34,722 bases of DNA from Actinomycetota bacterium (GTDB taxonomy: Bacteria; Actinomycetota; Actinomycetes; Actinomycetales; Kineosporiaceae), in assembly GCA_030837345.1 (NCBI GenBank), contig JAUPKQ010000195.1, positions 1 to 34,722 on the forward strand. Reading direction: 5' to 3'. Shown here piece by piece: positions 22,838-34,722 of the stretch. Below the pieces are notes generated by a model. The model saw only the letters and a list, made by a program, of their open reading frames with translations. It searched no databases and had not been told where the DNA came from. How positions within the stretch are numbered: the first letter of the stretch is position 1; every line of letters begins with the position of its first letter. The position numbers and the translations under genes were made by a program.

Positions 22838-23719
22838 TCAGCCGATGAGCCGCACATCCACCCCGGCCGTTCCGGGGATCTCGTGGAGTTCGATCCGGTC
22901 GACGGTGACCCCCACGGGGATGTCGAACACGGCGACCGTCTTCACGGTGATGCCGGCGGGGAGTTGCTCGATGTAGTTCTCGCCTTCTTTACCGAGGTAG
23001 ATCGAGGCTCCCGAGTCGGCCTCGTACTCCTGGCCCGCCGTGTCATACAGCTTCTGGACGGCCGCCATGAACAACTGGCTCTCACTGCTCACGTTCTTCA
23101 CCGTGAGCGAGACGAGCAGGTATTGCCCCTGGGCCCGCTGGCTGACGTACTCGTTGCCGATCGTCGGGGCGACGCGAACACCGGTGACGGTGAATTCGAA
23201 CGACCCGTCACGAACGGGCACCGCCACGGCCGCGGTCTTTCCGGGCACCGCCACGGCCGCGGTCTTTCCGGGCACCGCCTTTCCGGGCGGCACCTCACCG
23301 GGCGCCGCCGACGACAGGTTCGGCCTCGGCGACGGGGTCGACACCGCCGTCCCCAGATCGGCGAGGGTCGCGGTGGTGTCCCGGTCAGGCAGGAAGGACC
23401 CCACAGCGATGAGGACCGCGCTGACACCGACGAATCCCACGGCGATCCGCACCCCCCGGCGGCTCCCGAGGGACCGTTCCGACCGTGACCGTTCCGACCT
23501 GGCCCGTTCGCGGAGCGCCCGGCGCGTCCGCCCGTCGTCCGGACGTCGTGCCACCTGGGGAGCGACGTCGGGGGAGATCTCGTAGGCGTCTCTCCCGCCA
23601 GCGTCCGGGGAGATGTCGTAGGGGGAGGGCGGTAGCATCTCTTCGAGCCACCGGGACTCGCCGCTCGCGGGGTCCACCACGTACTGGCACCCCGACACCG
23701 GGTCCGTGAAGATCTCCAT
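22838..23719 (-). CDS. DUF4352 membrane protein with WW-like N terminus, copy 1
   Basis: A 293-residue single-pass membrane protein. Residues 1-27 (MEIFTDPVSGCQYVVDPASG, then ESRWLEE) resemble the second half of a WW domain (G-x-x-Y-x-V-D-x-x-x-G-x-S-x-W). A polar, Arg-rich cytoplasmic stretch follows, then a transmembrane helix at about 90-110 (IAVGFVGVSAVLIAVGSFL). Outside is a Pro/Ala linker with a duplicated 9-residue unit and a DUF4352 domain (GSFEFTVTGVRVAPTIGNEYV, YLLVSLTVKNVSSESQLF, YEADSGASIY, VAVFDIPVGVTVDRIELHE), an Ig-like fold. The ATG follows GGGAG by eight bases, as in copy 2. Function unknown; DUF4352 proteins are extracellular and often lipoproteins. Confidence 0.85.
   Translation of the reverse strand: MEIFTDPVSGCQYVVDPASGESRWLEEMLPPSPYDISPDAGGRDAYEISPDVAPQVARRPDDGRTRRALRERARSERSRSERSLGSRRGVRIAVGFVGVSAVLIAVGSFLPDRDTTATLADLGTAVSTPSPRPNLSSAAPGEVPPGKAVPGKTAAVAVPGKTAAVAVPVRDGSFEFTVTGVRVAPTIGNEYVSQRAQGQYLLVSLTVKNVSSESQLFMAAVQKLYDTAGQEYEADSGASIYLGKEGENYIEQLPAGITVKTVAVFDIPVGVTVDRIELHEIPGTAGVDVRLIG
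23216..23288. repeat. 27-base tandem repeat in DUF4352 copy 1
   Basis: A 27-base unit beginning GGGCACCGCCACGGCC and ending GGTCTTTCC occurs twice exactly (23216-23242, 23243-23269), with a third broken copy. It encodes VPGKTAAVA units in the linker between membrane helix and DUF4352 domain. Confidence 0.88.
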
Positions 23720-25196: not shown

Positions 25197-25988
25197 TCAT
25201 CGGAGGTCGACCTCGACCCCACCGGACAGAACACTGTCGTGGAGGACGACACGATCCGGGGTGCTGTCGACGGGCACGTCGAAGACCAGCGTTCCCGTGA
25301 CGGAGGTTCCGGGATCGATCTGGTCGACGAGGTTCGACGGCGCCCCCAAGAAGATCGCAGCGGCCGGGTCCGCCGTGAACTGGCGGCCCGCGGTGTCGTG
25401 AAGCTTCTGGGCGAGGGACAAGAAGGTCTTGTTCTTGTCGCTGATGTTCCTCACCGTCACGGTGACGAGGAGGAAGGTGCCGTCCGACGTGGTGTTGACG
25501 AACTCGTTGCCGAGCCGCTTCTTCCTGGCGATCCCGGTGACGGTGAATTCGAACTTGCCGTCGCGCACCGGCGTCCCGACGCCCGGTACCGGTGGCGCGG
25601 GCCTCGGGGTGGGCCGGGTGGCGGGCTTCTGGGACGGCGGTGCGACCGTCCGGGACGGCGTGGGGCGGGTGGGCTGCGACGGAGTGTCCCCGCCCCGGCC
25701 CAGCACGAGGACGAGCGCGGTCCCGAGCACGCAGAGGACGAGCAGCACGGCGAGAACCCTCATCGCGACCCCGCCGGCCCGGCCCATCCTTCTCGACTGC
25801 TCCGGCGGGACCTCCGGGTACCACCCGGGATCGGGCTCATGGCCGCCGTACCCACCGCCCGGTGGAACGGGCAGCTCCTGGGTGTCCTGGAGGTTCGGCG
25901 GCGGGGGCTGGTCGAGCCACCGCGACAGCCCGGTCGCCGGATCGACGGTGTACTGCCGCCCGGAGGCGGGGTCCGTGTAGATCTCCAT
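25197..25988 (-). CDS. DUF4352 membrane protein with WW-like N terminus, copy 2
   Basis: A 263-residue paralogue of 22838-23719. It starts MEIYTDPASGRQYTVDPATG and continues LSRWLDQPPPP, a closer match to the C-terminal half of a WW domain (GRxY, V-D-x-x-T-G-x-S-x-W-x-x-P). After a Pro/Gly-rich stretch comes a transmembrane helix at about 76-96 (VLAVLLVLCVLGTALVLVLG), a Pro/Thr/Arg linker and a DUF4352 domain (GKFEFTVTGIARKKRLGNEF, FLLVTVTVRNISDKNKTF, FTADPAAAIFLG, GTLVFDVPVDSTPDRVVLHD). The ATG at 25988, eight bases after GGGAG, is chosen over an ORF extending to 26105 because copy 1 starts at the same residue. Cytoplasmic WW-like head and extracellular DUF4352 are inferred from the single helix. 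Confidence 0.87.
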   Translation of the reverse strand: MEIYTDPASGRQYTVDPATGLSRWLDQPPPPNLQDTQELPVPPGGGYGGHEPDPGWYPEVPPEQSRRMGRAGGVAMRVLAVLLVLCVLGTALVLVLGRGGDTPSQPTRPTPSRTVAPPSQKPATRPTPRPAPPVPGVGTPVRDGKFEFTVTGIARKKRLGNEFVNTTSDGTFLLVTVTVRNISDKNKTFLSLAQKLHDTAGRQFTADPAAAIFLGAPSNLVDQIDPGTSVTGTLVFDVPVDSTPDRVVLHDSVLSGGVEVDLR

Positions 25989-26133
25989 GAAGGGGGCTCC
26001 CGGTGTGACCTGCCCGGAACGGCGGGCACCACCTTTCCCCACGCGCACCCGATCCGGCATCCTGATCCACATAATCCCACTCCTCCTGACGACAACGACA
26101 GGCACTGCGAGGGGGTGCCCGGCCCGTCCGGGT

Positions 26134-27820: not shown

Positions 27821-28960
27821 ATGCCGGATGTTCCCGGACGTCTTCTCGCCCGTACCCTCGCCGCCATCGGCCCCGCCGATCCGCAGGCCACGAAGGCGGC
27901 CCGCCTCCGGCAGCGGCACCTGACGAAACCACTCGGTTCGCTCGGCGTCCTGGAGGATCTCTCCGTGCAACTCGCGGGCCTGGCCGGGAGCTGCCCCCCG
28001 CCCGTGCCCGAGCCCGCCGCCGTCGCCGTGTTCGCGGCGGACCACGGCGTCGCCGTCCACGGCATCAGCGTCTGGCCCCAGGAGGTGACCGTGCAGATGG
28101 TCGCCAACTACCTGGCGGGAGGCGCCGCGGTCAACGTGTTCGCCCGGCAGGCGGGGGCGCACCTGACGGTGGTGGACGTCGGTATCGCGGGCCCGGTGGC
28201 GGACCCGCCCCCCGGCTGCCCCGTGCCCCTGCTGCGGCGGCGCGTCCGCCCGGGGACGGCGGACCTGACGACGGGTCCGGCGATGACCCGCGACGAGGCG
28301 GTCCGGTCGGTGGAGACCGGGATCACCGTCGCTCACGAACTGGTCGACGCCGGGTTCCGGTGCCTGCTCACGGCGGAGATGGGCATCGGCAACACGACGA
28401 CGTCCGCCGTCCTGATCGCCGCCTTCACCGGGGCCGGCGCGGACGCCGTCACCGGCCGGGGCGGTGGCCTCTCGACGGAACGGCGCCGGCACAAGGTCGC
28501 CGTCGTCCGGGCCGCCCTCGACCGCCACCGGCGCGACCAGAACAGGACCGACCAGAACAGGCCAGGCCCGGCGGACCCGCTCGGGGTGCTCGCGGACGTC
28601 GGCGGGCTCGAACACGGCGCGCTCGCCGGTCTCGTGCTCGGCGCGGCCGAGCGCCGGGTACCGGTGATCCTGGACGGCGTGATCGCCGGGGCGGCGGCCC
28701 TCGTCGCCGCGGCGCTGGCGCCGGACAGCATGGCGGCGTGTGTCGCGGGCCACCGGTCCGCCGAACCGGGGCACGCGATCACCCTCGAGCACCTCGGGCT
28801 CTCCCATCCCCTCGTCGACCTGGGTCTGCGACTGGGCGAGGGCACCGGAGCCCTGCTGGCGCTGCCCCTCGTTCAGACGGCGTGCCGGGCGCTGCGGGAG
28901 ATGGCGACCTTCGACTCGGGCGGCGTCTCCGTCCGCGACGAGTCGCTGGCCGACGATTGA
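27821..28960 (+). CDS. cobT: Nicotinate-nucleotide--dimethylbenzimidazole phosphoribosyltransferase
   Basis: A 379-residue enzyme that transfers phosphoribose from nicotinate mononucleotide to 5,6-dimethylbenzimidazole, making the lower ligand precursor of cobalamin. Recognisable motifs are RLTKPLGSLG-like RHLTKPLGSLGVLEDL, VAVFAADHGVAVHGIS, YLAGGAAVNVFARQ, LLTAEMGIGNTTTSA, LDGVIAGAAAL, and the C-terminal RLGEGTGALLA with Glu340 as the catalytic base. Length and order are normal (about 350 residues), apart from a small insertion with a duplicated DQNR unit near residue 242. The ATG follows GGAAGG by seven bases. It is the only cobalamin gene in the window and lies under the riboswitch. Confidence 0.95.
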   Translation: MPDVPGRLLARTLAAIGPADPQATKAARLRQRHLTKPLGSLGVLEDLSVQLAGLAGSCPPPVPEPAAVAVFAADHGVAVHGISVWPQEVTVQMVANYLAGGAAVNVFARQAGAHLTVVDVGIAGPVADPPPGCPVPLLRRRVRPGTADLTTGPAMTRDEAVRSVETGITVAHELVDAGFRCLLTAEMGIGNTTTSAVLIAAFTGAGADAVTGRGGGLSTERRRHKVAVVRAALDRHRRDQNRTDQNRPGPADPLGVLADVGGLEHGALAGLVLGAAERRVPVILDGVIAGAAALVAAALAPDSMAACVAGHRSAEPGHAITLEHLGLSHPLVDLGLRLGEGTGALLALPLVQTACRALREMATFDSGGVSVRDESLADD

Positions 28961-28984
28961 CGCCCGCAATGCCAGAATCACTCC

Positions 28985-30916
28985 ATGAGCCGGGATGACT
29001 ACCCCAAGTTATGGCAGGCGGTTCTCGGCGGCGGAGCCTCCTTCGCCCTCGGGGTGACGTGCAATCTCGTCACCGACGCGCTGCCCCCGCGCCCGTGGAT
29101 CCCGGTCATCAGTGCGGGGACCGCGTTCGTGATCTACCTTCCGGTGATCGTCGCCGAGGTCCGCCGGGCCCTCCAGCGCGGGGTCCCGGCGCAGGAGGCG
29201 GTCCTCACCGTCGTCGATCCGTCGGGGAACGAGGTGGGCCACGCCGTCCGGATCGTCTGGGGACGCTGGCTCGTCTGCCCGGCCAGGGTGGTCCTTCGCG
29301 CCCTGTCCCATCCCTGGTACGCAAGACCGCGACGGTCGGACACGGTGTCCCTCCGCGCACGGCGTCCCGGCGGCACGGCGACCGTGGAGGCGAAGGTCGC
29401 CCTGTGGGGTCCGGGCCGGGCCGGGGACGACGCGCGCCTCGCCGTCCTGCGCACCACGAAGCGGCTGCCGGGACGGGGTGGCCGGGCTCTCGGGGCGAGC
29501 GCGCCGGAGGTCGAGAGCGTCGCCGTCCTCCGTGCGGGAACGACGGGCGGAACGGCGGGGTGGGCTCCCGGGCGCCGGACGGGTGGGAGCGTCGAGCTCG
29601 ACGACGGCAGCACCGTGACGCCGGGGTCTGTCGTCGTGACGGACGACGCGTTCGTCGGTTTCGTCGAACCGGACGACGCCCAGCCCAGCGTCGGCACACC
29701 CCCCGGCGGCCCGGCGCCCGGACCGTCGGCCGCTCCGGCGCCCGGACCGGGGCTGACGCTCATCGATGCCCGGACGGCGGTCAGGCTGCGCTCGATCGCG
29801 GTGTCGCGACGGACGGCGATCACAGGCTGCACCGCCGCCGCCCTGGTGGGAGGCACCGCCGGGGGCGCCTACTGGTGGATCACCAGGCCCACCCGCGTGA
29901 ACGGCGCCGGATGGGACGTGCTCTTCGCCGGCGACGACGGCGGGCCCGCCCCGTGGCTGAGGGGCGGACCGGTGATCGAGCAGTTCACGAAGCAGTCAGG
30001 ACGGGAGGCTCTCCAGCTGACGACGGCGGAGCTTGAGGAGCTCGACGTCATCACCTCCCCGAACGACTTCATCGCGAGTGAACTCCGGCAGCACGTCAAG
30101 AGCCTGCTCGGCCGGGATCCGCTCGCCGTCGAGACGATCTGCACGGACTCGACCGTGGTCCTCGCCCGGCGAAGTTTCCTCCCGGCGATGGCCACGGGCC
30201 GCATGCTCGTGCGCCCGAAGGGCCGCGACGGCGTGTACCTCGACCTGGCCCGCTACCTGGAGTGTTGTCACACGCGCTGGAGTGACCTCGACCCAGCGCT
30301 CGCCAGGCTCGTCACGGACGTCGGCGGACAGCAGGTCACGATCGACACGGCCGATCCCCGGACGAGCGGCGGCGGACAGAACGTCCTCGCAGCCCTGGAG
30401 CGGACCCGTTCCACCATGCCCCGGAAGGAGCAGAAGGCGTCTGGCTTCGCGACGACAGAATCCCTCTGGCGGCATGACCCCTACCGGCAGGGTCCGTTGG
30501 CCCGGCGGATGCCGAGTTCGTCGTCTGACCTGCTCGACACCCTGCGGTCGGGAGACAGGCCCGTCATCTTCGCCTACGAGCACGACGCCCTGCGCGAGGT
30601 CACCACCGATCCGGGTCTGGTGCTTCTTCGCACGATCCGGGAGGCGAGGTTCACGCAGAAGCTCGTCGTCCTCACCGAAGCAGGCCAGACGATCCGCCGA
30701 CGCCTGCGCTCGTCCGCCGCCGCCGACTACCTCAGCGACCGCGGGATCAAGGTGCCGGGTCGCGAGACGAAGGTCGAAGCCCGTCTGCGGGCGCACCACG
30801 CCACCGTGGCAGGCCTGGTCGGTCGCGTGGAGGAGGTGAGTTGGCCCGCCGCACCGGTCGACCTGGACAAGGACTCCGTCGAGCGGTACCTCGCCCTCTT
30901 CGAACGCACGAGCTAA
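28985..30916 (+). CDS. Membrane fusion of a trypsin-like fold (no catalytic triad) and a solute-binding fold
   Basis: A 643-residue protein. Two membrane helices lie at about 12-32 and 38-58, followed by a basic stretch. Residues about 70-245 run like a trypsin-like domain (AVLTVVDPSGNEVGHAVRIV, WLVCPARVV where CAHVV is usual, LAVLRTTKRLP, TPGSVVVTDDAFVGFVEP where the Ser motif is usual), but the catalytic His and Ser appear lost. A third helix at about 276-298 follows an Arg pair. Residues about 305-640 resemble the solute-binding half of actinobacterial SBP-VWA proteins (ITSPNDFIASEL, DTADPRTSGGGQNVLAAL, KLVVLTEAGQTIRRRL, Gly-Ile-Lys-Val-Pro near the end). Positive-inside reasoning puts the first domain inside and the second outside. 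It starts 24 bases after cobT with no clear ribosome binding site. Function unknown. Confidence 0.7.
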   Translation: MSRDDYPKLWQAVLGGGASFALGVTCNLVTDALPPRPWIPVISAGTAFVIYLPVIVAEVRRALQRGVPAQEAVLTVVDPSGNEVGHAVRIVWGRWLVCPARVVLRALSHPWYARPRRSDTVSLRARRPGGTATVEAKVALWGPGRAGDDARLAVLRTTKRLPGRGGRALGASAPEVESVAVLRAGTTGGTAGWAPGRRTGGSVELDDGSTVTPGSVVVTDDAFVGFVEPDDAQPSVGTPPGGPAPGPSAAPAPGPGLTLIDARTAVRLRSIAVSRRTAITGCTAAALVGGTAGGAYWWITRPTRVNGAGWDVLFAGDDGGPAPWLRGGPVIEQFTKQSGREALQLTTAELEELDVITSPNDFIASELRQHVKSLLGRDPLAVETICTDSTVVLARRSFLPAMATGRMLVRPKGRDGVYLDLARYLECCHTRWSDLDPALARLVTDVGGQQVTIDTADPRTSGGGQNVLAALERTRSTMPRKEQKASGFATTESLWRHDPYRQGPLARRMPSSSSDLLDTLRSGDRPVIFAYEHDALREVTTDPGLVLLRTIREARFTQKLVVLTEAGQTIRRRLRSSAAADYLSDRGIKVPGRETKVEARLRAHHATVAGLVGRVEEVSWPAAPVDLDKDSVERYLALFERTS

Positions 30917-32302: not shown

Positions 32303-33067
32303 ATGGACGACGCCCTGCCCGAGCCCGCACCCGATCCCCTGCCCGGCCCGCCCGGGTCACCGGACTGGCCCTCGTTGCTGGCCCGGGAGTTCTGCCCGGT
32401 GGAGGAGCCGATCGCCGGGGAGGTCGCGCGACGCTACGCGGAGGGCGGGCGGTCGCGCCGGGCCCTCTTCGCCGAGTCGGGTGAGCAGACCGGTGGTTTC
32501 GGCGGCGGCGCCCCGGTCGCCGAGATCGCCGTCCTCCTCGACACGGTCGCCCAATCGGCGCGGGTGGTGCTGGCGTTCCTCGACGCGCACCAGGGCCTCG
32601 GCGTCCTCGTCGAGTCGGGGGCCGTGGTGATCGCCGTGGTCGAGGCTCGGCGCTCCCGCAAGCTCGCCGCGAAGGAGCCCCTCACACCGGAGGACTCCGC
32701 CGAACCCTCCGCTGCCTCCGCAGCCTCCGCGCCGGAGGAGGCCCTCCTTCCGGACGACGCCGTCGCCCTCGTCGACGACGCCCTGGAGGGACTGGCCGCA
32801 CGACTCACCGTCCACGGTCTGACGGAGCAGGCGGCCTGGGCCCGGTCCTGTGCGCTCCTGCTCCTCCTGGAGCGCGAGAACCCGGCCGGCGCCGCGGCGT
32901 TCGTGCGCTACCTCTCGCACACCGACGCGGCCCGGCAGGACGGCGCCCGCCCTGAGGGCGCCCGATCCGGCGCGGCCCGACACGACGGCGCCCGATCCGG
33001 CGCCGAGCCCGGGGGCGACCGTTCGCGACTGCGCTGGTGGCCGTTCCGCCGTCCGGGACAGCCGTGA
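32303..33067 (+). CDS. Unknown 254-residue protein coupled to a membrane protease
   Basis: No family recognised. A Pro-rich N terminus leads to two mostly helical parts, one hydrophobic at about 70-115 (AEIAVLLDTVAQSARVVLAF, LGVLVESGAVVIAVVEARRS), the other at about 150-205 (AVALVDDALEGLAARLTVHG, WARSCALLLLLEREN). The C terminus is a Gly/Ala/Arg repeat (GARPEGARSGAARHDGARSG) ending in basic residues. The first hydrophobic stretch could touch the membrane but is not a clean helix. ATG 32303 follows GAGGAGG. Its stop overlaps the protease start by GTGA, so the two are translated together and may act as a pair. Confidence 0.72.
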   Translation: MDDALPEPAPDPLPGPPGSPDWPSLLAREFCPVEEPIAGEVARRYAEGGRSRRALFAESGEQTGGFGGGAPVAEIAVLLDTVAQSARVVLAFLDAHQGLGVLVESGAVVIAVVEARRSRKLAAKEPLTPEDSAEPSAASAASAPEEALLPDDAVALVDDALEGLAARLTVHGLTEQAAWARSCALLLLLERENPAGAAAFVRYLSHTDAARQDGARPEGARSGAARHDGARSGAEPGGDRSRLRWWPFRRPGQP

Positions 33068-34722
33068 CGGGCGTCGCGTCGTCCGCGGGACGACGTGCGA
33101 CGGCGCTGCCCCCCTGGCTGCTCGTGTACGCGGCGCTGACCGTCGCGTTCGTCCTCCCGGGTCAGGTGACAGGGTTGCAGGACGGCGTGGCCCAGATCGA
33201 GGCCGCTCGGGCGGAGGCCGCCCTCAGCGGGGTGAGGGGAGTCGAGGCCTACTGGCTGCTCCTCGTCGCCCAGGCGGTGCCCCCGGTGTCCCTGGTGATC
33301 GGGCTGGCGTACGTCGTGTTCCCCGGGCTTCGACGCCGGATGGTCGAGCACCGGCATCCGCTGACGCCGTCCTCCGGCGCGGGACCGGCGGAGATGCAGA
33401 ACTTCGTCGACCGCCACGCCACCCGGGTGGAGGTATGTCTGACGACGAGGCCGGCGGGTCTGGCACGCGTCTACCCCAAGGGTTTCCGGAGGGCGAGGAT
33501 CGCGGTGTCCCCGGGGTTCCTTCACCTGTGGGACGACGACCGTCCGGCCGCCGAGGCCACCCTTCTCCACGAAATCGCCCACCGGCGTCAGGGTGAGCAC
33601 CTGCTCGCCGGGGTGGGCGGTCCGTTCCAGATCCTCGTCCGGATCTGGGCCGTGGCGTTCGTCGTCTTCTCTGTGCTGCCTGTCGCGATTCTCGCCCTGA
33701 TGAGCGGCTGGGACCGTCGTCTCCTGGCCGTCGCGGCGACTCCACAACTCGCGCAGGACAGCGTGCTGCTGGTGAAACTCCTCGTCTTCCCGGTGGCTGC
33801 CCTCTGGCTGGCGGAACTGGTCGCCGACGAGTGGGCCGCCCGCCTCCGGGGCACCGACGCCGTCCTCTCCGCTCTCTCAAAGCCCCACGTCACCCGGTTC
33901 CGGACCCGGATGTTCGGCCTGCTCGACCATCCCCCTCTGGCGCTGCGACGCCGGATGCTCCGGCCGGACCGGGTGACGTGGTTTCTCTTCTCCTGGCCCG
34001 CCGTTCCCGTCGCCCTTCACTTCCTCATCAGCGCGGCGGCTCTGGTGCCCACGTACTGGCTGTTGTGGAACACGTTCCAGGGATTGCCCGCGTGGATCGT
34101 CCAAGGGCTCGTGGGGACGCTCCGCTCGTCCCTGCCCTTGACCGTGACGTCGGGCGTCCTCCTCGCCGGCTGGTCTCTCGCCGGACTGCGTCGTCGCCCC
34201 CTCACGCTCGCCGCCCTTCTGTCGGCTCTCCTGGCCGCGGGAGCCTTCCTTCCCGTTCCGACGGCCGAGGCCCCCGATCACCACCCGAGCTTCGTCGGCC
34301 CGTCATCCCTCCCCGACACCCTCGGCTCCGGACGCCTCCCCCTCGTTCTGAAGGTCACGCGCGTGGTGTCGTTCGACGACACACTCGCCACACCGGAGCA
34401 AACGGCCGAAGCCCGGACCAGGCTGATGGCCGCCCGATGGACGTTCGACGAGAACGGCCGTTTCGAGCTCGGCGGCTCCGGGCTACCGTCCGATCTCTAT
34501 CCGGTCCACGGCCAGTGGACGGCCTCACCTCATCGCGTCGACTTCTCCTCCGCGGACCTCACCGGTGGTTCCTCTCCCGCCGGAGGCCTGCCGCCGGTCT
34601 CGGTCTCGGGTTCGATCGACGCGGCGAAACAGCCGCCCGAGATGGAGCTGATGTGGTCCGTCACCGCTGACCCGATGACGCCTCAGATCTACCACCTCAC
34701 CACCGAGGTCGCTCCCGCCTGA
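33064..34722 (+). CDS. M48/M56-like membrane metalloprotease with extracellular tail
   Basis: A 552-residue membrane protein. The zinc motif HEIAH is at 169-173, and ELVADEWAARL places Glu251 and Asp255 as the third-ligand motif ExxxD of M48-type peptidases. Helices are seen at about 15-35, 62-85, 190-218, 238-256, 310-335, 345-370 and 375-400. The final 150 residues have no helix and look like an extracellular domain (TRVVSFDDTLATPEQTAEAR, WTFDENGRFELGGSG, YHLTTEVAPA). M56 relatives sense beta-lactams and M48 relatives degrade membrane proteins; neither role can be assigned. The GTG at 33064 overlaps the previous stop. The stop codon ends at the window's last base, so the gene is complete. 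Confidence 0.82.
   Translation: MTGVASSAGRRATALPPWLLVYAALTVAFVLPGQVTGLQDGVAQIEAARAEAALSGVRGVEAYWLLLVAQAVPPVSLVIGLAYVVFPGLRRRMVEHRHPLTPSSGAGPAEMQNFVDRHATRVEVCLTTRPAGLARVYPKGFRRARIAVSPGFLHLWDDDRPAAEATLLHEIAHRRQGEHLLAGVGGPFQILVRIWAVAFVVFSVLPVAILALMSGWDRRLLAVAATPQLAQDSVLLVKLLVFPVAALWLAELVADEWAARLRGTDAVLSALSKPHVTRFRTRMFGLLDHPPLALRRRMLRPDRVTWFLFSWPAVPVALHFLISAAALVPTYWLLWNTFQGLPAWIVQGLVGTLRSSLPLTVTSGVLLAGWSLAGLRRRPLTLAALLSALLAAGAFLPVPTAEAPDHHPSFVGPSSLPDTLGSGRLPLVLKVTRVVSFDDTLATPEQTAEARTRLMAARWTFDENGRFELGGSGLPSDLYPVHGQWTASPHRVDFSSADLTGGSSPAGGLPPVSVSGSIDAAKQPPEMELMWSVTADPMTPQIYHLTTEVAPA

Follow-up and report, generated by a model that had tools for sequence, protein, structure and literature searches.

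How might an actinobacterial cell use a single membrane protein that carries a degenerate trypsin domain in one half and a solute-binding protein (SBP) domain in the other? The question is raised by a gene at 28985-30916 (plus strand, as are all of its features given below) of a 34,722-nucleotide stretch of DNA from a member of the Kineosporiaceae (contig JAUPKQ010000195.1), which we call the window. The gene encodes 643 amino acids within exact ORF limits, its GC3 is 0.88, and its codon-position composition is typical among the window's other genes. It starts 24 bases downstream of cobT (27821-28960, a DBI_PRT match). Between the two (28958-28984), the cobT stop codon shares the reading frame of the fusion gene and stands eight codons before its ATG, and a clear ribosome-binding site upstream of that ATG is absent. 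We rejected the idea that the two genes form an operon, as the linkage is not common to the second genome that carries the fusion. Neighbours that could be recognised comprise cobT, a gene for a GH3 protein and genes for DUF4352 proteins. The scan of window proteins recognised no kinase, cyclase, vWA or MoxR protein, and no window neighbour reveals the output of the fusion protein. Two of the neighbouring genes, at 22838-23719 and 25197-26105, encode DUF4352 proteins and enclose two unmatched small genes, all on the minus strand. At 33037-34722 lies a gene, cut by the contig end, for a membrane protein with a HEIAH motif and the look of an M56/BlaR1-like metallopeptidase, with no Pfam match.

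The encoded protein begins with two hydrophobic helices, residues 12-30 (29018-29074, KD 1.44) and 39-57 (29099-29155, KD 2.13), the latter followed by the positively charged EVRRALQR. A degenerate S1 domain, about 170 residues long, and a Pro/Gly/Ala-rich linker (residues 233-267, 29681-29785) separate helix 2 from a weak third helix at about residues 277-299 (29813-29881; ~277-298, KD 1.11, in the hydropathy profile), behind which lie R301 and R304. The remaining 340 residues (304-643, 29894-30913) form the SBP-type domain. Hydropathy thus bore out the three membrane helices of the initial annotation.

The same annotation had read the middle region as a dead trypsin fold from the order of its motifs CPARVV (residues 98-103, 29276-29293) and TPGSVVV (212-218, 29618-29638). 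Searches with single sequences did not detect it: Pfam Trypsin and Trypsin_2 gave no match to the region (up to E 1) or to the whole protein (up to E 10), NCBIfam held nothing for the fusion protein, PDB sequence searches returned nothing useful, and Pfam matches to DUF7146 and Glyco_hydro_67N were rejected as far under cut-off. For profile-profile comparison we assembled S1 domains from the same family, including long conflict-type proteins, and widened the set to 33 class-level actinobacterial domains. Against these, window residues 60-232 aligned with the homologous region of the second genome (L110) scored 36.4 (E 3.9e-5, 87 columns). In contrast, 150 column shuffles averaged 12.8 (sd 2.8, maximum 22.2) and the reversed profile scored 11.8. 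The alignment placed CPARVV on CAHVV and DARLAVLR on DLAVLR, a register also obtained with a smaller S1 set, and the trypsin-type order of the motifs was thereby upheld. Run against 297 class genomes, the two-row pseudo-protease profile yielded no further relative, only short, scattered and weak matches (E 0.003 or worse).

Structure prediction pointed the same way at low overall confidence (mean pLDDT 36 for the full-length model and 52 for the isolated region). The AlphaFold model of the isolated region, built from two sequences, was fairly confident only for residues ~70-159, where most ten-residue blocks reached 62-80 and one 47. Its Foldseek matches in the PDB were nearly all S1 proteins (best E 2.3e-3). 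VIA-align returned a uniformly S1 list with Z up to 9.3, just above the tool's warning level; the list included DegS and, among S1 proteins that do not catalyse, haptoglobin, protein Z and MamO, the last of these a pseudo-protease that matched with Z 9.2 over 83 residues (rmsd 2.7). The full-length model, made separately, also matched trypsins, and the element order E-E-E-H-E-E-E is common to both models. A trypsin-type N-terminal barrel with a helix after the His motif (residues 70-165, 29192-29479) is thus supported by the models and by the profile comparison alike. The presumed C-terminal barrel (166-232, 29480-29680) is shortened, has pLDDT mostly below 50, and shows a fitting block order only in a forced alignment. 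Judged by profiles and models together, only the N-terminal barrel of the trypsin fold is truly demonstrated, and to that extent the proposed fold holds.

The catalytic residues are lost. In the window protein CPARVV replaces CAHVV (CPAGVV in L110), so the His is absent from both proteins. The Asp position in DDARLAVLR (148-156, 29426-29452), which replaces (D)DLAVLR, is occupied by Arg; L110 retains the Asp (CDLVVLR). TPGSVVV sits where GFSGSPV is expected: in the forced alignment the VTPG of both proteins falls on the block that precedes FSG, FSG itself being gone in the window protein and represented by RPGEG in L110 (TPGRPGEGV), and GxSG is missing from both. A conserved His/Asp/Ser triad, which the initial annotation had named as evidence against its reading, is therefore absent. 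Identity between the two proteins is nevertheless highest in the N-terminal barrel (43.5%), ahead of the SBP domain (38.7%), the C-terminal barrel (23.9%) and the linker (14.3%). Because this barrel is the best conserved part despite the lost triad, we argue that it retains a non-catalytic role, probably as a binding module rather than as debris.

The C-terminal domain matches Pfam SBP_bac_11 at 18-20 bits, below the 25-bit gathering cut-off, and the full-length model (pLDDT 36) is too poor to be a reliable guide to this domain. Its assignment came through intermediates. A profile of the three homologues' SBP domains reached membrane-anchored proteins of 362-392 residues in another actinomycete family (f35; L017-L021), with E 2.5e-7 and weaker. 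In profile-profile comparison the SBP domain matched these anchored relatives with E 4.9e-12 over 257 columns, and the relatives matched the SBP_bac_11 set with E 3.6e-6; shuffle controls fell well below. Membership of the C-terminal domain in the SBP superfamily, as initially proposed, is thus supported transitively. Class-level matches of the same profile (L008, L011 and L012) were rejected, being unrelated proteins matched at the helix-3 segment alone. The fusion protein and the anchored relatives share a homologous SBP domain and membrane anchoring; the relatives differ in their strongly hydrophobic N-terminal anchors and their pairing with a VWA gene, and they have no pseudo-protease, no R-R with a weak helix and no conserved Cys pair. 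That pair, C386 (30140-30142) and C428 (30266-30268), is invariant in the three homologues and a candidate disulfide, and three of the four anchored relatives compared contain no cysteine at all. An SBP-VWA gene lies downstream of the anchored SBP gene, on the same strand, in all five f35 genomes examined, at spacings from overlap to 1.2 kb (L017:7084-9913 and the matching places in L018-L021), a conserved two-gene module in which the anchored SBP has no Pfam match.

Which half lies on which side of the membrane was predicted from hydropathy and charge. Positive charges lie after helix 2 (EVRRALQR in the window protein, RKLVERFRER in L110) and ahead of helix 3. By the positive-inside rule, the pseudo-protease would therefore lie inside and the SBP domain outside. 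The arrangement in the initial annotation is consistent with these charges, with the invariant R-R before the weak helix 3, with the paralogue described below and with the invariant Cys pair of the SBP domain, and it stands as a prediction. Helix 3 starts with SRRTAI in the window protein (residues 274-279, 29804-29821), TRRLAL in L110, which is the poorer match to a twin-arginine motif, and SRRTAL in the third homologue; both arginines (R275 and R276) are invariant. Across the three homologues, the best 19 residues of this helix have KD values of 1.11, 1.14 and 1.51, whereas the anchors of four SBP relatives lie at 2.7-3.1. Dual Sec-Tat proteins combine an even number of helices, an R-R motif, a last helix of low hydrophobicity and positive charges behind it (PMC5449189). 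The fusion protein has this anatomy, including arginines downstream of helix 3, and TatC is present in the window genome; by analogy, the SBP domain is probably exported by Tat. The R-R before helix 3 also fits a plain positive-inside signal. The actinobacterial Rieske protein Sco2149 (PMC5449189) likewise spans the membrane with three helices, the third weakly hydrophobic, preceded by R-R and followed by positive charges; it differs in having about 43 residues between helix 2 and R-R, where the fusion protein, a putative Tat substrate with no evident cofactor domain, has about 200 that include a folded domain. A comparison with a Rieske yardstick from the same genome failed, the only Rieske match there being a small protein without helices of the dual Sec-Tat type.

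A profile search for the same architecture in other actinomycetes, as first suggested, recovered it from one other genus of the same small family, in a river-sediment Actinomycetota MAG (G001, JAUPKJ01; draft, 95% complete). Homologues were found in these two genomes only: the remaining 56 of 58 relatives had none, nor did 11 other family members or 394 other genomes of the order, class-wide searches gave only weak SBP-domain relatives, and single-protein close-relative scans of viral and genome contigs found nothing. With two of hundreds of genomes carrying the fusion, the power of comparison is small. Since two independent assemblies have the same fusion, a chimeric contig is excluded, and the sequences indicate that the fusion is a real architecture and no assembly artefact. 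The MAG encodes the full architecture at L110:4984-7224 and a paralogue at L111:4441-7149. The paralogue keeps R-R, helix 3 and the SBP domain, but helices 1-2 and the pseudo-protease are replaced by an N-terminal stretch of about 520 residues that is acidic, rich in proline, partly repetitive and disordered. Within this tail (L111:5467-5692) are about three 75-base repeats, SSEAQTVAIP / SEAETATIP, whose Thr-x-x-Ile pattern presumably resembles the phospho-threonine sites bound by FHA domains.

We infer a receptor-like role, and give an even chance to the reading of the fusion protein as a transmembrane receptor or adaptor with the SBP domain outside and the pseudo-protease as a docking module inside. 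Sec would insert helices 1-2; the SBP domain would probably fold first and then be carried across by Tat at the R-R-marked helix 3. Outside, it would bind a small solute or a cell-envelope ligand. Inside, the pseudo-protease, related to actinobacterial conflict-system S1 proteases, would no longer cut, and its conserved N-terminal barrel could still dock a peptide or a partner protein. Closure or clustering of the SBP domain on binding its ligand might then alter the access to the docking domain or its clustering. The paralogue exchanges the inside half while the outside half stays constant, as expected of a receptor or adaptor. Peptide binding has been proposed for the inactive trypsin modules of actinobacterial conflict systems (PMC7159879), in line with a docking role. 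Against this reading, no conserved neighbour hints at an output, and the two halves might be uncoupled by the Pro-rich linker between them.

Most SBPs serve importers, and the fusion protein might likewise be a tethered transport SBP that feeds an ABC importer encoded elsewhere, its pseudo-trypsin part a relic or mere anchor. The degenerate C-terminal barrel (24% identity) and the unconserved linker agree with such a history, but the conservation of the N-terminal barrel exceeds that of the SBP domain. Moreover, no permease or ATPase gene was recognised adjoining the fusion gene in the window or among the homologues' scanned neighbours, though importer genes may lie elsewhere, and the nearest SBP relatives adjoin an SBP-VWA gene in five of five genomes with no recognised ABC genes alongside. 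We regard this explanation as rather unlikely. The S1 half invites another, that within a conflict (defence) system a membrane-held pseudo-trypsin mimics an active S1 protease and acts as a decoy or dominant negative. The nearest S1 relatives found are indeed conflict-type proteases, and the window genome itself encodes one (G000:C227, L080) with intact CAHVV, DL and GFSG. They share with the fusion protein the N-terminal barrel and the order of the CAHVV-like, W-P and DLAVLR-like blocks, and inactive modules are known among them (Kaur et al. 2020, PMC7159879); in MoxR-vWA systems, nearly all trypsins in the effector position are inactive, and peptide binding or a dominant-negative effect has been proposed for them (PMC7159879). 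The fusion protein differs in its lack of catalytic residues and of a Pfam match, in its membrane attachment and in having an SBP partner instead of an NTPase or vWA. As an SBP domain outside is ill-suited to a purely intracellular trap, and no vWA, MoxR, VMAP or Trypco neighbour (including the adjacent MoxR and vWA genes of the ternary system) was recognised among the window proteins scanned, a decoy seems quite improbable. In the second genome, a divergent gene pair at L052 (G001:C92:1000-7500) encodes conflict-type S1 domains, in both cases followed by a segment resembling a metallophosphoesterase start (TVLHLSDLGFS).

A comparable plan is seen in CisA of S. coelicolor (SCO4242), for which a layout of cytoplasmic part, membrane helix and extracytoplasmic SBP-like domain has experimental support and a sensing role has been suggested (PMC12237407). 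By analogy, the fusion protein could draw a contractile injection system (CIS) from the cytoplasm to the membrane while its outer domain senses stress; the paralogue with its disordered N-terminus is even closer to CisA, and the window genome contains a CIS, with sheath and baseplate genes (L115:5254-7242 and L117, on contigs C81 and C168). The likeness is one of overall plan, with several differences: CisA has a disordered N-terminus, a single transmembrane helix and a C-terminal domain of about 160 residues, half the ~340 of the SBP domain here, and its gene lies in the CIS cluster and is restricted to CIS-bearing genomes, a pattern that the fusion gene does not follow. The baseplate contig of the window genome has no conspicuous CisA-like membrane gene. 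The fusion gene is off that genome's CIS contigs, and no sheath match was obtained in the draft second genome, which encodes two homologues; we therefore consider a CIS role unlikely and give very little weight to the CIS-adaptor version. Least credible of all is enzymatic activity or metal binding at an unusual site, for example with C98 as the nucleophile. C98 and P99 are conserved in the window protein and L110, and a degenerate S1 barrel can bind metal, as in MamO (PMC4794232), a bacterial pseudo-protease among the top fold matches that differs in being a magnetosome protein with other domain partners and another location. No His of the pseudo-trypsin region is conserved between the two sequences, however, and C98 aligns with the Cys of TCAHVV, a motif shared by active relatives, rather than with the nucleophile.

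The initial annotation knew of no described system with this pairing. None emerged from the open-licence papers searched, in which the combination is undescribed; the component parts are of known kinds, and both halves have precedents (PMC7159879 and PMC12237407). We tentatively suggest, as a possibility that is itself doubtful, that these are lineage-specific one-piece transmembrane sensors, inserted by Sec and Tat together, in which a half-degenerate, conflict-related trypsin barrel serves as the cytoplasmic output of an SBP receptor and the output half is exchanged between paralogues. The practical weight of the finding is limited by its rarity, in two genera both known from draft genomes alone. 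If the receptor reading is true, a membrane receptor would have taken over a dead protease as its signalling or docking end, and the fusion would be a possible dual Sec-Tat protein with no evident cofactor.
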